Assembly: GCF_008362905.1 (NCBI RefSeq)
Contig: NZ_VFJB01000004.1
Span: 186,001-250,000, forward strand
Reading direction: 5' to 3'
Length of the DNA: 64,000 bases
Source of the DNA: Deferribacter autotrophicus
Lineage (GTDB): Bacteria; Chrysiogenota; Deferribacteres; Deferribacterales; Deferribacteraceae
Below, piece after piece: positions 46,385 to 52,078 of the stretch. The number at the start of each line of letters is the position of its first letter. The first letter of the stretch is position 1. The position numbers were made by a program, and so were the translations under genes. The notes under the pieces are model-generated. The model saw only the letters and a program-made list of their open reading frames with translations, searched no databases and was not told the origin of the DNA.

Positions 46385-47593
46385 ATGAAAAAAAATCTTT
46401 TAAGGTTTATTTTAGCACTATTCGTAGTCTTTAGTTTATTCTTTGCTGGTTGTGCAAAACAAGCACAAAAACCTGCAGCAGCTGAAACTCCAAAGAAAAG
46501 TGTAAAAGAACTAATTAAAGAAGCTGGTTTCGAAATTGTTGATTACGATTATGTAAAAGGATTAGTAGGAAACGGCTTAAGAAAGTTTGAGAAAGTGGTA
46601 ATAATTGATGCCAGACCAGAAAGAAAGTATGACTCAGGGCATATACCTGGTGCTATCAATATCCCTGACACCAAGTTCAACCAATATGTGGGACAATTAG
46701 GAAAATTAAATATTACAAAAGATACTCTACTTATTACATATTGTGGCGGTTTTCATTGTATTAAAAGTTATCATGATGCAAAATATCTGAGAGATAAAGG
46801 TTACAAAAACATTAAAGTATATCTTGCAGGGATGCCAGATTGGTCTAAAAAATCTTATGCAGAAATCACTCATAAATATGCAAAAAAATTGCTGGATAAA
46901 GGGGTTTTATTTATAGATGCTAGACCTGATAGAAAATGGAAAAAAGGGACTATCCCAGGTGCTATCAATATTCCTGATACAAAATTTATGAGAAACCCTG
47001 AACCATATCTTGCAAAATTGCCTCAAGATAAAAACACACCTATCGTAGTTTTCTGTGGTGGTTATAAATGTGTAAAATCACATAACGTTGCAAGATTGTT
47101 AAAAGAAAAATATGGATACAATAAAGTATATGCTTACGCAGGTGGTTTACCTGAATGGAAACAGCTTGGATATGCTGTTGCAGCTCCTGGAGCAAAAGTA
47201 ATCAAAAAAGCAGTTTCTACTCAAACAGTAGGCACTATAAAGCCTGGTCCAGATGAAGGAACTGTAGCTATAGAATTTTTTAAAGCTATAATTGATGATA
47301 GACCTTCAAACATCCATATAGTAGATGTTAGATCACCTGAAGAATTTGCAGAAGGACATGTAAAAGGCGCCATTAACATCCCAGTAGATGATATGTACAA
47401 AAAGGGTTGTGATTATATAATCAACAAATTACCAAAAGATGGCTATATCATTTTTATGTGCGCATCTGGTGGTAGAGCTGGAGAAATGTATTTTGGCCTA
47501 TTGGAAGACTGTAGTTACAAAGAGATGAACAGATTATATTTCCTTGATGCTCACGTTGACTTCTCAGGCGGTAAATGCAAAATCACAGAATAA
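46385..47593 (+). CDS. Periplasmic lipoprotein with three rhodanese domains
   Basis: 402 residues. Lipoprotein signal with lipobox FFAGC (Cys22). Three rhodanese domains: 1 at about 45-155 with Cys120 in YCGGFHCIKS; 2 at about 165-262 with Cys224 in FCGGYKCVKS; 3 at about 290-402 with Cys359 in CASGGRAGE. The first two loops are near copies (CGGxxCxKS, two cysteines), the third is a conventional CxSGxR loop. Likely sulfur transfer in the periplasm. Followed by a terminator and an octaheme cytochrome gene. Confidence 0.87.
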   Translation: MKKNLLRFILALFVVFSLFFAGCAKQAQKPAAAETPKKSVKELIKEAGFEIVDYDYVKGLVGNGLRKFEKVVIIDARPERKYDSGHIPGAINIPDTKFNQYVGQLGKLNITKDTLLITYCGGFHCIKSYHDAKYLRDKGYKNIKVYLAGMPDWSKKSYAEITHKYAKKLLDKGVLFIDARPDRKWKKGTIPGAINIPDTKFMRNPEPYLAKLPQDKNTPIVVFCGGYKCVKSHNVARLLKEKYGYNKVYAYAGGLPEWKQLGYAVAAPGAKVIKKAVSTQTVGTIKPGPDEGTVAIEFFKAIIDDRPSNIHIVDVRSPEEFAEGHVKGAINIPVDDMYKKGCDYIINKLPKDGYIIFMCASGGRAGEMYFGLLEDCSYKEMNRLYFLDAHVDFSGGKCKITE

Positions 47594-47630
47594 TTAATCT
47601 TAAAATAATCTAACTTAATGTAGCGTATCA

Positions 47631-47662
47631 GGGTAAGACTGACAGTCTTACCCTTTTTTTTT
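47631..47662 (+). terminator. Intrinsic terminator after the rhodanese gene
   Basis: Perfect 10-bp stem GGGTAAGACT / AGTCTTACCC with loop GAC and nine T. Separates the rhodanese and cytochrome genes. Confidence 0.92.
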
Positions 47663-47692
47663 ATTTACATTTGATTTTATCTGGAGGTTGTC

Positions 47693-49171
47693 ATGAGATA
47701 TTTATCAGCATTACTAATTATTTTCTTCAGTTTTTCCATCGCACTTGCCGACGGATATTATGATCCAAAAGAGTATTACAAAAGTAAAGACTACGAAAAG
47801 TACAAATCAAGAAGTGCCAGAAAAGCTAACCCCCACAAAAAACTCACTGGTTATACTGGAGCATTTTACTGCGAAAAATGTCATCCTGGTGCCATTGAAG
47901 AGGTTATGAACTCAATCCATTACAAATGGGCAGGAAAACTCCCACCTAACTATCTCATAGAAAACGGCAAGGCTGTCACAGGTGGCAAAGAAATCGGTAA
48001 AAAATACAAGCTTGGTAGTTGTCCAGGTGCATATCCTCTTGCAAACTATTTAGGAATATTACCAGACAAAAATGGAAAAAAAATTGGATTAGGTTGTGGT
48101 AAATGCCACGTTGGTGGTGGTTATCCCCCAGTTGAATTCAAAAAAGCGATGTTTGAGCAAAAAAACGCCATTGAATGTCTTCTGTGCCATGCTGAAGAGT
48201 ATGATATGTCAAAAAGAAAAGTTATAAAAGTAGGAGAAAAAAACGGTAAACCAATCTTGAGATTAACACAAGATATGAGTGATAAGGCATTGCAATCTGT
48301 GGGTAGACCTACAAATGAAGCCTGTATGAGATGTCACTATACTGCAGGAGGAGGACCTCTATTTAAGCGTGGTGTTGATTATGCAGATGATACGGATGTT
48401 CATGCAGCTATAGGATTACTTTGCGTAGATTGCCACACTCCAAGGCCAAGAAAAGATCATGGTATGGTAAGAAGTCTTGGATTGGATATTTGGAACTATG
48501 ATCACTATACAAAAGAAGAAGGGTGCATAAAGTGTCATCCAGGTAAAATACATAAAGATAAAAGATACGATGCAGGATGTAATGGTAAAGTAGCCTGCGT
48601 AACATGTCATATTAAAACTACAGGTGGTTTGATGATGAAAGATTTCAGTCAAATGCATCAAAGTAAAAAAAGTGGTTTCTGGCTATTCAAGACAATAGTA
48701 AAGGACGAACATAGTGTGCCTGTAGTTTATAAATGGTGGGATGGAAAAGCAAGGGAACCCTTTATCCCTCAAGGGGATCCTAAAGATAAAAACAGCAAGC
48801 TCTATGTGTTTAAAAAATTTGAGCAGATTATTCCTGTGGATAAAAACGGAAACAGGCTTCCTTATAAACTTGGTATTGTCACAAAAATGGGGCCCGGAAA
48901 AGACGAAAATGGGAATAATATACCTGATAACATCGAAAAAGCTACTCTTATTGGTGTAAAACTTGGAAAATTCCTAAATGGTAAACCAGAAAATCCTGGT
49001 ATAAAAAAATCTCCTATAGCTGGATTCAAAAAAATTACTGAATACTTTATGGTAAGCCATGGAGTTCTTCCAAAAGAAGAAGCCTTAACATGTAAAGATT
49101 GCCATGGAAACAATCCAGTTATAAACTGGAAAGAACTGGGAATGGAAAACCCTGTAACTATTAATCAATAA
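47693..49171 (+). CDS. Octaheme cytochrome c (tetrathionate reductase-like)
   Basis: 492 residues with signal peptide (cleavage after ALAD, near residue 20). Eight CxxCH haem motifs: CEKCH, CGKCH, CLLCH, CMRCH, CVDCH, CIKCH, CVTCH, CKDCH. The pattern CEKCHPGAIEEVMNSIHYKW followed by a GCGKCHVGGGYPP and IECLLCH resembles octaheme tetrathionate reductase (OTR). OTR-family enzymes reduce tetrathionate, nitrite or hydroxylamine in vitro. The rhodanese lipoprotein upstream hints at a sulfur substrate. The exact reaction is unknown. Confidence 0.82.
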   Translation: MRYLSALLIIFFSFSIALADGYYDPKEYYKSKDYEKYKSRSARKANPHKKLTGYTGAFYCEKCHPGAIEEVMNSIHYKWAGKLPPNYLIENGKAVTGGKEIGKKYKLGSCPGAYPLANYLGILPDKNGKKIGLGCGKCHVGGGYPPVEFKKAMFEQKNAIECLLCHAEEYDMSKRKVIKVGEKNGKPILRLTQDMSDKALQSVGRPTNEACMRCHYTAGGGPLFKRGVDYADDTDVHAAIGLLCVDCHTPRPRKDHGMVRSLGLDIWNYDHYTKEEGCIKCHPGKIHKDKRYDAGCNGKVACVTCHIKTTGGLMMKDFSQMHQSKKSGFWLFKTIVKDEHSVPVVYKWWDGKAREPFIPQGDPKDKNSKLYVFKKFEQIIPVDKNGNRLPYKLGIVTKMGPGKDENGNNIPDNIEKATLIGVKLGKFLNGKPENPGIKKSPIAGFKKITEYFMVSHGVLPKEEALTCKDCHGNNPVINWKELGMENPVTINQ

Positions 49172-49174
49172 AAA

Positions 49175-49203
49175 AAGCCCCTTTAAAAGGGGCATTTTTA
49201 TTT
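49175..49203. terminator. Intrinsic terminator after octaheme cytochrome
   Basis: GCCCCTTT (49177-49184) / AAAGGGGC (49186-49193) with A-run before and T-run after; can serve the convergent gene at 49205 too. Confidence 0.8.
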
Positions 49204-49204
49204 A

Positions 49205-50059
49205 TCAGAATCTACCATGACCTCCACCATGGTCACCTGCTCCATCGGTACCCATTCCTCCTGATGAACTGGCATCCATACCTGTGCTTCCAGCACTACC
49301 AGCATCATGTCCTACATCCGCACCTCTAGCTCCATGTTCCATATTTTCACTCATCTGTTCTGCTATATCTTTAGGATCTCCCATTCTTGCCTGTTCCATA
49401 AAAGCCTCTCGCATCTCTTTCATTTCTCTAGCTGTAAATTCATGTTTCATAGCATTATTTATCACATCCTTCGCTTCATCAGAGCTTACTCCATGTCTAG
49501 CCATCTCTTTAGCCATTTCGGTAACCTCAAGGGCATAATTTTCCTTCTCTTTTACCCTATCCATCTTCTGCTCCAAGGCCTTAATCATATCATCCATATG
49601 CTCTTTCTTCATACCTGCGGCCATTGCATCTACAATATTCTGGGCTACTCTTGCTCTCATTTGAGCATTCAACTTCATACGCTCAACCTTTTGATAAGCA
49701 TATGCATATCTGTTTCTGACCTGGTTTAATGCCTCATAAATCTTTTCAGTACTTACATTTTTAGCAAGCCCTTCATTCACTTTAGACACCATTGGTCCTA
49801 CCGGCAAACCCTGCTTTTTCGCTTCCAAAATTGCATCGATCACTTTTGCCGCATATCTGGTTTGAACCCTCTGCTGAAGCATATTTTTTACCATATTTAA
49901 AGCATCTTCTGATTTAATTCCTGCTGCCAACATTTCTTGCACTTTTGCTTTTAGCTGAACAGGAGTCTGTTCTAATAATTCCTCTTCAGTAACTGCAAAA
50001 CTAATAACCGCAAACATTAAAACCAATATTAAACTCAAAAATACCTTTTTCATCTCCAA
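49205..50059 (-). CDS. Secreted helical-repeat protein with Gly/His-rich tail
   Basis: 284 residues, signal peptide (to about 22, SFAVTEEE). The mature part is almost all helix, with repeats of about 40 residues built as (A/H)G(I/L/M/V)-x5-(M/V/A)-x10: AAGIKSEDALNMVKNML, KQGLPVGPMVSKVNEGL, AAGMKKEHMDDMIKAL, RHGVSSDEAKDVINNAM. The last 45 residues are Gly/Ser/Asp/His-rich, ending HGGGHGRF. No family recognised. It has its own ECF-type promoter, so it is a likely member of the sigma regulon encoded next door. Confidence 0.7.
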   Translation of the reverse strand: MEMKKVFLSLILVLMFAVISFAVTEEELLEQTPVQLKAKVQEMLAAGIKSEDALNMVKNMLQQRVQTRYAAKVIDAILEAKKQGLPVGPMVSKVNEGLAKNVSTEKIYEALNQVRNRYAYAYQKVERMKLNAQMRARVAQNIVDAMAAGMKKEHMDDMIKALEQKMDRVKEKENYALEVTEMAKEMARHGVSSDEAKDVINNAMKHEFTAREMKEMREAFMEQARMGDPKDIAEQMSENMEHGARGADVGHDAGSAGSTGMDASSSGGMGTDGAGDHGGGHGRF

Positions 50060-50087: not shown

Positions 50088-50114
50088 AACGATTAAGTGG
50101 GTAAAAAGGTTACG
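50088..50114 (-). promoter_or_regulatory. ECF-type promoter of the helical-repeat gene
   Basis: On the minus strand CGTAAC (50114-50109), 17 bp, CGTT (50091-50088). CGTT lies 28 bp before the ATG. It fits the motif found ahead of the sigma gene and of the Tyr-rich secreted gene. Confidence 0.6.
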
Positions 50115-50436
50115 GAAAATTTTTAAAAATACAATTTTCTCCACCAAAATCGTCTTTCTCTTTCAACTCACAATCAGGAATGTAAAGTTTACCATCAACT
50201 TTATAAAAATATTTTATCTCTTTTGAAGCAGGATGTTTAATCTTCACAACCCAAATATCATTTTTAATTTTTTCAGCTTTGTGTTTCTCAAAACCGTCTA
50301 CATCAACATATAATTCTATATTTTTAGATGAATCATCTCTCAAATAAAAAAGAAGACTATCATCCTTCTTTTTAACATAATGAGAAGCACAAGATATAAA
50401 TAAAAATGATAAAAGTATAATTATACTTTTTTTCAT
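50110..50436 (-). CDS. Small lipoprotein with E-set (CBM48-like) domain
   Basis: 108 residues. Lipobox LFISCAS (Cys16). The rest resembles a degenerate glycogen-binding/E-set fold: IELYVDVDGFEKHKAEKI, then KYFYKVDGKLYIPD and KEKDDFGGENCIF, matching the (Y/F)xxVD...D(D/G)FGxxN end of the domain in the adjacent anti-sigma factor. Stop-start overlap (TAATG) with that gene. Possibly presents the signal, or competes for the ligand sensed by the anti-sigma. Confidence 0.7.
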   Translation of the reverse strand: MKKSIIILLSFLFISCASHYVKKKDDSLLFYLRDDSSKNIELYVDVDGFEKHKAEKIKNDIWVVKIKHPASKEIKYFYKVDGKLYIPDCELKEKDDFGGENCIFKNFP

Positions 50437-51008
50437 TATGCATCCTCCTTTAATTCTAAAATCGAATTAACATTCCCAAAATCATCCCTTTCTTTCGCTA
50501 TGATTGTGGGATCTGGAGTACTGTACTTATCATCCACTACAAAACTATATTTATGCTCACCCGGTTTCAATTTCAATGAAACTTCAAAATAGCCGGTATT
50601 ATCAATCCTTTTCATCTTAATTCTTTGCCAATTCGTAAAAGTCCCAGCGATTTCAACCTTTTTTGCATCTGGTTTATAAATGACAAATCTATATTCTTTT
50701 ATCATTTCATTTGGTTTCAAAGCGACAGAATTAGATGAATTTTGAAAATTCAATACCGCAAAAATTATTAATATCGATGCAACAACAGACATTATTGCCG
50801 GAACAAATCTAAAATTCATTTTTCTCCTTTGTTCAAAATTAACTTCTCTTTCAGGCTCAATATAATCACGCAATAAATATTCCTGACCAATAAATTCCAA
50901 TACCTCTTCGCCAAATGTTGAATCTTTCATAACCTCTTTAATAAAGATTTCTTTTTCTTTTAACGTAAGTTCATCATCAATATATTTACTTATTAAAAGC
51001 TCTCTCAT
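50436..51008 (-). CDS. Anti-sigma factor with periplasmic AMPK/CBM48-like domain
   Basis: 190 residues. N-terminal 60 residues are helical and acidic (LLISKYIDDELTLKEKEIFI, the usual start of anti-sigma factors), without the zinc-binding HxxxCxxC. One membrane helix at about 68-87. The periplasmic part (105-187) has the E-set glycogen-binding pattern: KKVEIAGTFTNWQRIKM, LKPGEHKYSFVVDD, DDFGNVNSIL. Overlaps the sigma gene by 4 bp, the normal sigma/anti-sigma arrangement. Ligand unknown; a glucan is a guess from the fold. Confidence 0.78.
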   Translation of the reverse strand: MRELLISKYIDDELTLKEKEIFIKEVMKDSTFGEEVLEFIGQEYLLRDYIEPEREVNFEQRRKMNFRFVPAIMSVVASILIIFAVLNFQNSSNSVALKPNEMIKEYRFVIYKPDAKKVEIAGTFTNWQRIKMKRIDNTGYFEVSLKLKPGEHKYSFVVDDKYSTPDPTIIAKERDDFGNVNSILELKEDA

Positions 51009-51475
51009 TTTAAACCTCCTTTTAGGATTTGCCTAAGTTTCTGCCTCGCTCTATGTATTTTAACTTTGATATTTGCCACACTTAAGCCTGTAATTTCACT
51101 TATCTCCTTGTAACTCAAATTATCCGAAACCTTTAAAGACAGTATCTGTCTTTCTTCAAGTGGTAATTTCTGCATTGCTTTAAGCAGATTTTTATAATCT
51201 TCTTTTGCAATTAAAGATTCTTCTACATCAGTTATAGATAGAGTCACTTCTACATTCAGTTCGCTGTTTTTCTTGGATTTTCTGTAAAAATCAATATACA
51301 AATTGTAGGCTATTTTATACAATAAGCTTTTATTATAAACTTTATAGTTTTCATAAATTTTTATATAAGCATCCTGCATAAGATCAGATGCCAAATCATA
51401 ATCGCCGGTTAGCTTTAATAAATAATTGAAGAAAGGAACTTTCGTGTTTTTATAAAACTCTTTTAATTCTCTCAT
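51005..51475 (-). CDS. ECF-family RNA polymerase sigma factor
   Basis: 156 residues. Region 2 (KLTGDYDLASDLMQDAYIKI, KIAYNLYIDFYRKSKK) and region 4 (LPLEERQILSLKVSDNLSYK, ISEITGLSVANIKVKIHRARQ). An ECF promoter pair lies directly upstream, so it is probably autoregulated and held by the membrane anti-sigma encoded next. The inferred -10 is only 11 bp from the ATG, so its mRNA leader would be very short. Confidence 0.9.
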   Translation of the reverse strand: MRELKEFYKNTKVPFFNYLLKLTGDYDLASDLMQDAYIKIYENYKVYNKSLLYKIAYNLYIDFYRKSKKNSELNVEVTLSITDVEESLIAKEDYKNLLKAMQKLPLEERQILSLKVSDNLSYKEISEITGLSVANIKVKIHRARQKLRQILKGGLK

Positions 51476-51486
51476 CCTACCATTAT

Positions 51487-51512
51487 AACGTAATAAAAAA
51501 ATGAAGGTTACA
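51487..51512 (-). promoter_or_regulatory. ECF-type promoter of the sigma operon
   Basis: Minus strand TGTAAC (51512-51507), 16 bp, CGTT (51490-51487). Matches the classical ECF pattern (AAC -35, CGT -10) and the two other sites in this locus. Confidence 0.65.
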
Positions 51513-51546
51513 ATTTTTGAATTAAATTAGAAAAATATGTATGTTA

Positions 51547-51588
51547 AAAAAAGATGCTCGCAATTTTGATTTAGCGAGCATCTTTTTA
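51547..51588 (-). terminator. Intrinsic terminator of the Tyr-rich secreted gene
   Basis: 14-bp stem AAAAAGATGCTCGC / GCGAGCATCTTTTT with a 12-nt loop, just past the stop at 51591. Insulates the sigma operon from it. Confidence 0.85.
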
Positions 51589-51590
51589 TT

Positions 51591-52025
51591 TTATTTATTT
51601 CTAAAAAAGCCACTACCTGGAGTAACCGGATTTCCATTAGCATCTTTTACCAAACTACCGGTAGAATCCACTATGTAACCATCACTATTCACACTATAAC
51701 CTCTTTCTGTTAAATTCTTATATTGCCTGCTGTTACTTGAGCTTGAAGATCTTGAGCCTTTATATTGATTCTTGTTCTGATATTGTGAACCACTTCCTGC
51801 ACCTTGCTTAGAACCTTTGTACTGATATTTATACTGGTGCTTATACTGGTTATTATAACTACTACCTGATCCATAATTATACCTGTAGTTTTGCTGATAA
51901 TTATAACTGTTTGAATTAGAATATCCACCCATCATTCCGCCTCTACCTGATCTCATACCCCTTGCATAGCTGTCAACAACCAAAAATACAAATAATACAC
52001 TTAATGCTAATACTACTTTTTTCAT
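51591..52025 (-). CDS. Secreted Tyr/Asn/Gln/Ser-rich low-complexity protein
   Basis: 144 residues. Signal peptide (cleavage near SYARG, about 21). A Met/Gly/Arg-rich stretch (GMRSGRGGMMGGY), then about 65 residues of Tyr, Asn, Gln, Ser, Gly and Lys in a NQYKHQYKYQYKGS-like periodicity, then a short ordered C-terminus (VNSDGYIVDSTGSLVKDANG). No family recognised. Composition resembles prion-like or amyloid-forming secreted proteins. An ECF-type promoter matching that of the adjacent sigma gene lies upstream. Own terminator. Confidence 0.7.
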   Translation of the reverse strand: MKKVVLALSVLFVFLVVDSYARGMRSGRGGMMGGYSNSNSYNYQQNYRYNYGSGSSYNNQYKHQYKYQYKGSKQGAGSGSQYQNKNQYKGSRSSSSSNSRQYKNLTERGYSVNSDGYIVDSTGSLVKDANGNPVTPGSGFFRNK

Positions 52026-52052
52026 TTCTTACCTCCATTTTTTTTATTCTTA

Positions 52053-52078
52053 AACGTATTTGCCACTCAAAAGTTACA
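52053..52078 (-). promoter_or_regulatory. ECF-type promoter of the Tyr-rich secreted gene
   Basis: Minus strand TGTAAC (52078-52073), 16 bp, CGTT (52056-52053), 27 bp before the ATG. Same hexamer and spacing as the sigma gene promoter. Confidence 0.65.

Follow-up and report, generated by a model that had tools for sequence, protein, structure and literature searches.

A conserved cassette in Deferribacter autotrophicus and other anaerobes points to an autoregulated ECF sigma/anti-sigma circuit with three promoters

In the window (the whole 64,000-nucleotide stretch of Deferribacter autotrophicus DNA analysed here), an ECF sigma factor and a candidate anti-sigma factor very probably form a self-contained, autoregulated circuit that drives its own gene cassette from three promoters. 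The cassette comprises genes for the sigma factor, a CBM48-type anti-sigma factor, an E-set lipoprotein, a secreted protein of predicted helical structure and a low-complexity secreted protein. The membership proposed in a preliminary description of this DNA (sigma, anti-sigma, an E-set lipoprotein and two secreted proteins) is that of the conserved cassette itself, and sequence comparison across two phyla indicates that cassette and promoter motif together constitute a conserved circuit. The features are as follows, in the order in which the − strand is read.

52053..52078, − strand: putative ECF-type promoter of the Tyr-rich secreted gene, TGTAACTTTTGAGTGGCAAATACGTT (TGTAAC-N16-CGTT)
51591..52025, − strand: Tyr/Ser/Gly-rich small secreted protein, low-complexity, 144 aa (open reading frame)
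51548..51587, − strand: probable terminator with a 14-bp stem, 12-nt loop and T tract (-20.4 kcal/mol, z -7.3)
51487..51512, − strand: putative ECF-type promoter of the sigma operon, TGTAACCTTCATTTTTTTATTACGTT (TGTAAC-N16-CGTT)
51005..51475, − strand: ECF sigma factor, SigM-like, 156 aa, with regions 2 and 4 (Pfam and TIGRFAM models)
50436..51008, − strand: anti-sigma candidate, 190 aa, with a 4-nt overlap with the sigma gene
50110..50436, − strand: E-set lipoprotein, 108 aa, lipobox ..LFISC
50088..50114, − strand: putative ECF-type promoter of the helical gene (CGTAAC-N17-CGTT)
49205..50053, − strand: secreted all-alpha repeat ("helical") protein with a Gly/Ser/His-rich tail, 282 aa from the ATG
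49177..49193, − strand: terminator-like hairpin closing the cassette, predicted to function on both strands

The window contains three matches to GTAAC-N16/17-CGTT, at 50088-50113, 51487-51511 and 52053-52077 of the − strand; chance would give 0.24 in the whole window, and no shuffle gave three. Exact matches number 15 across the 2.535-Mb genome, and the Poisson probability of three falling within 2 kb is ~2.7e-7 per 2-kb stretch. The three sites are real and not a product of chance, and each is present as an exact match with the letters first reported for it (CGTAAC-N17-CGTT once, TGTAAC-N16-CGTT twice).

The placement of these sites differs from gene to gene. At the Tyr-rich gene we measured 27 nt from CGTT to ATG, the distance originally given, and the leader contains GGAGG; in Deferribacterota relatives the motif stands at the matching position 5' of the small secreted gene. 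For the helical gene a distance of 28 had been claimed, but the gap is 34 nt to the ATG at 50053, which has AAGGAGG just 5' of it, and 28 suits only an in-frame TTG at 50059. The stop codon with which the lipoprotein gene ends (TAA, 50112-50110) falls within the GTAAC of this site, as it likewise does in several relatives. The most informative of the three distances, absent from the preliminary description, is that at the sigma gene, where only 11 nt separate CGTT from the ATG and there is no Shine-Dalgarno sequence. Between the Tyr-rich and sigma genes, the hairpin at 51548..51587 is probably a terminator that insulates sigma from its upstream neighbor, which would explain why sigma needs a promoter of its own here.

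The window sigma factor matches Sigma70_r2 (1.4e-6) and r4_2 (2.6e-16) in Pfam and scores 77.5 bits against TIGR02937, above the cut-off of 42.9; it also matches TIGR02950 at 4e-31, yet remains under the cut-off of that model. It has regions 2 and 4 and lacks region 3, which places it among the ECF (group IV) factors, and the motif and its conservation point to the other property expected of this group, a predicted AAC/CGT promoter with a 16-17 spacer at its own gene.

The adjoining gene encodes a protein with the architecture of a class I anti-sigma factor (ASD): N-terminal helices (residues 2-10, 16-26 and 30-48), a hydrophobic helix (73-89) that we read as a TM helix, and an extracytoplasmic beta domain (104-186), all specified by a gene that follows sigma. 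From gene order and architecture only, we infer that this protein binds sigma. None of 36 anti-sigma members matched a named ASD or anti-sigma Pfam domain, and the members have no conserved Cys/His set corresponding to the zinc motif (HxxxCxxC); zinc-less ASDs exist, so a missing zinc motif does not exclude an ASD. The C-terminal domain is a CBM48/AMPK-beta (E-set) domain. PF16561 and PF02922 both score above cut-off, 36/36 members match, the AMPK1_CBM score of the window protein is 2.5e-15, and its fold aligns with 1z0m (TM-score on target 0.88, E 4.6e-8). At the positions that we take to be the AMPK sugar contacts, the invariant W127 and N181 line up with the tryptophan and asparagine; the column aligned with the lysine is mostly Ser (26/36 members) and that aligned with the second tryptophan is variable, such that the AMPK-type contact set is kept in part (Trp, Asn) and lost in part (Lys, second Trp). 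Glycan sensing by this domain is possible, with no detailed support from the contact residues. The E-set lipoprotein cross-matches the CBM48 region of the anti-sigma protein in five loci (L047, L056, L059, L063 and L064).

Conservation of the cassette is evident within the class. Besides the window, 40 related genomes contain 21 loci with good sigma matches (E<1e-20), and among the first 20 loci examined the anti-sigma gene is present in 20, the lipoprotein gene in 19 and the helical gene, by tblastn, in 18; the contig of one locus (L048) stops inside the anti-sigma gene, and a later profile search detected the helical gene in L064's genome, G038, as well. In most related loci a small low-complexity secreted gene lies 5' of sigma. 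Class-wide, the anti-sigma protein occurs in 23 of 48 genomes and the helical protein in 22, these being the same genomes; the sole anti-sigma-only genome (G016) is interrupted by a contig end. The congener G001 has neither anti-sigma nor helical protein, and the cassette is absent from it. Relatives in the order carry the motif 5' of the small secreted gene, the helical gene or both, with the variants CAGTT and TAGTT in some families. The sigma-proximal promoter had suggested that the window copy was acquired horizontally from Desulfobacterota; a tree of sigma plus anti-sigma contradicts this, grouping the window with Deferribacterota (97% SH-aLRT, by a quick method).

The footprint of the motif extends further. 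A search with the window anti-sigma sequence alone gave no matches and one with an alignment gave 363 relatives, the best 80 of which, mostly from Desulfobacterota with some from Deferribacterota, make up our locus set. These 80 loci were chosen by anti-sigma similarity and are mutually related, so that counts over them, of genes and of motifs alike, are not independent trials. Sigma is present in 80/80, anti-sigma in 80/80, the lipoprotein in 78 and the helical protein in 72. In 61 of the 80 an exact motif occurs no further than 100 nt from where sigma starts (shuffles gave a mean of 0.06 and never more than 2). CGTT and the sigma start are exactly 11 nt apart in 45, as in the window, and the motif is found somewhere in the cassette, at times divergently oriented, in 79. 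The motif is near sigma in 27 of 39 representatives that share less than 60% sigma identity. The consensus over loci is TGTAACCTTT-N12-CGTTAT, and over 143 sites the conserved letters outside the search pattern are CTTT after GTAAC and ATA after CGTT. The original suggestion that the motif fits ECF logic is supported, as the motif accompanies the cassette over two phyla, at fixed positions and far above shuffles. Three loci are rearranged (L184, L198 and L205), with the helical gene 5' of sigma and its own motif kept; in L184 the lipoprotein gene is also upstream of sigma.

Ribosome-binding sites across these loci differ between sigma and its putative target. Upstream of sigma the best Shine-Dalgarno match reaches at most 3 of 6 positions in 59 of the 80 loci (best 80 of 363 relatives), and upstream of the helical gene it reaches 5 or 6 of 6 in 38 of 72. 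Given the 11-nt gap and the poor Shine-Dalgarno match, we predict that sigma is translated from a message with little or no leader, and the target messages would have normal leaders. Most Deferribacterota relatives are without a sigma-proximal motif, indicating that a leaderless sigma is not universal.

The helical protein has a confidently predicted structure (mean pLDDT 90) that found no match in the PDB at E<=0.001. The Tyr-rich protein matched no Pfam or NCBIfam family above cut-off, and tblastn gave one weak match (L056, 34%); it occupies the place that Gly/Ser-rich and DGTG-repeat secreted proteins hold in relatives. At the DGTG-repeat genes, which are divergent small genes (L158, L178, L179, L183, L188, L190, L193 and L204), CGTT lies ~84-97 nt from the ATG, compared with 30-40 nt at most helical-gene sites, and these genes possibly share a conserved 5' leader element. 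Convergent with the cassette in the window, on the + strand at 46385-49171, are genes for a lipoprotein with several rhodanese-like repeats and then a multihaem cytochrome.

The regulon in this genome looks confined to one locus. A whole-genome scan, proposed at the outset as a check, gave a divided answer, with the motif at background frequency genome-wide and clearly above background at the locus. None of the other 12 exact matches lies in the sense orientation shortly 5' of a plausible start, and the pattern searches by which we scanned the genome found no unlinked target. A wider regulon reached through a relaxed motif was rejected: the 43 near-matches (60 for a reversed control) are mostly inside genes and amount to background. 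Because the whole-genome counts are near background, the regulon would be small, consisting of the cassette and occasional family members. Two such members occur in genomes whose unlinked sites played no part in defining the motif. In G042, a one-mismatch site (444463) on a 6.84-Mb contig lies more than 1.5 Mb from the cassette (about 5354382) and ~180 nt 5' of a DGTG-repeat secreted gene (L211), a family found elsewhere in the cassette. The other member is a frameshifted helical-gene paralog in G010 (L230), unlinked at a distance of ~590 kb, with TGTAAC-N17-CGTT from 57 nt 5' of its ATG and AGGAGG in its leader. A transposase-like frame (317 codons) is upstream of this paralog (G010:C1:628046-629003).

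Three further sites were noted. A perfect motif in Desulfosarcina alkanivorans (L209, G045:C1:612053-612080) is followed by a ribosome-binding site and a 13-codon frame, and is perhaps a decayed target gene. An intergenic region (L012, G000:C8:100294-100321) contains dense CGTTACG / CGTAACG repeats, possibly a repeated palindromic element. G037 lacks the cassette and has one zero-mismatch site, which was rejected as a target; it is inside a long gene whose product resembles ribosomal protein S1 and is attributable to chance.

Could the sites have another origin? That they are chance matches in AT-rich intergenic DNA has a negligible probability in our estimation; the genome-wide background frequency of the relaxed motif is what chance would give, but conservation, together with the enrichment in the window and the clustering within 2 kb, already refutes it. 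It is improbable, though less remote, that another sigma factor reads these promoters. Candidates would be the second ECF that the genome encodes (C2:91550-92008) or the housekeeping sigma, and the GTAAC/CGT promoter form is common to many ECF groups. Against this, the motif tracks this particular cassette across two phyla, and zero-mismatch sites in the 40 relatives are at the cassette, save for the intragenic one in G037. Sigma-70-like hexamers in the region number 18, which is shuffle level (14.5).

We consider it very unlikely that the bipartite motif is instead the operator of a DNA-binding regulator or an RNA element. Its fixed position and partial overlap with coding sequence would suit such an element. 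However, the motif lacks dyad symmetry, its AAC/CGT form and 16-17 spacing are what one expects of an ECF promoter, the sigma-proximal copy leaves almost no transcribed leader, and no further regulator is conserved in the cassette. The preferred reading is that the motif would be the promoter of the sigma factor encoded beside it.

A working scheme can be built on what is seen directly in the DNA, namely the anatomy of the cassette, the conservation of cassette and motif, the fixed 11-nt spacing and the missing Shine-Dalgarno sequence. The membrane anti-sigma factor, whose helical domain would face the cytoplasm and whose CBM48/E-set domain would lie outside, beyond a single TM helix, would hold sigma until an envelope or extracellular cue frees it. 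RNA polymerase with the freed sigma would then start at TGTAACCTTT-N12-CGTTAT. One promoter would raise sigma, anti-sigma and lipoprotein together; a second, with the lipoprotein stop codon inside its -35 element, would raise the helical-repeat secreted protein; and a third would raise the low-complexity secreted protein, the targets presumably having an extracellular role. Because the sigma message would begin no more than a few nucleotides before its start codon and lacks a ribosome-binding site, its translation would be leaderless or nearly so; this may cap the amount of sigma and keep it scarce, and its targets, with normal leaders, would be abundant.

Autoregulated ECF/anti-sigma pairs are a known kind of system. 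Like the SigM/SigX/SigW-type ECFs with a membrane anti-sigma, the window sigma has regions 2 and 4 only, an overlapping downstream anti-sigma gene and a predicted autoregulated AAC/CGT promoter; the consensus of Bacillus SigX is TGTAAC-N17-CGAC. Unlike them, the circuit described here has an anti-sigma with a CBM48/E-set domain, a sigma message predicted to be near-leaderless, and targets from uncharacterised families; it occurs in Desulfobacterota and Deferribacterota. The sigma also scores too low for the subfamily and equivalog models listed, TIGR02950 among them, to pass their cut-offs. The anti-sigma domain resembles the glycogen-binding CBM48 domain of AMPK-beta in fold, sequence and the Trp and Asn contacts, and differs in the loss of the lysine and second tryptophan contacts and in its predicted location outside the cell, on an anti-sigma factor. 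The main ECF classification aside (Casas-Pastor and others 2021), we found no description of the E-set anti-sigma, the placement of the sigma start or the secreted target families in the literature searched, and the sigma group may already be numbered in the published classification.

More speculatively, and as a reading less probable than not, we suggest that these systems may be an undescribed ECF group dedicated to surface-matrix homeostasis in anaerobic Desulfobacterota and Deferribacterota, in which the E-set/CBM48 anti-sigma might monitor either a polymer outside the cell or the circuit's own secreted products, the E-set lipoprotein might be a competitor or co-sensor, and leaderless translation might set sigma dosage. 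To our knowledge, few ECF systems have been worked out in these two phyla. What began as a guess about three sites is now a testable circuit spanning both, with a promoter consensus good enough for predicting unlinked targets. It would provide a regulatory context for three functionally uncharacterised families of secreted proteins, one with a confidently predicted all-helical fold and no solved relative, and its sigma gene would be a natural example of translation that dispenses with a leader.
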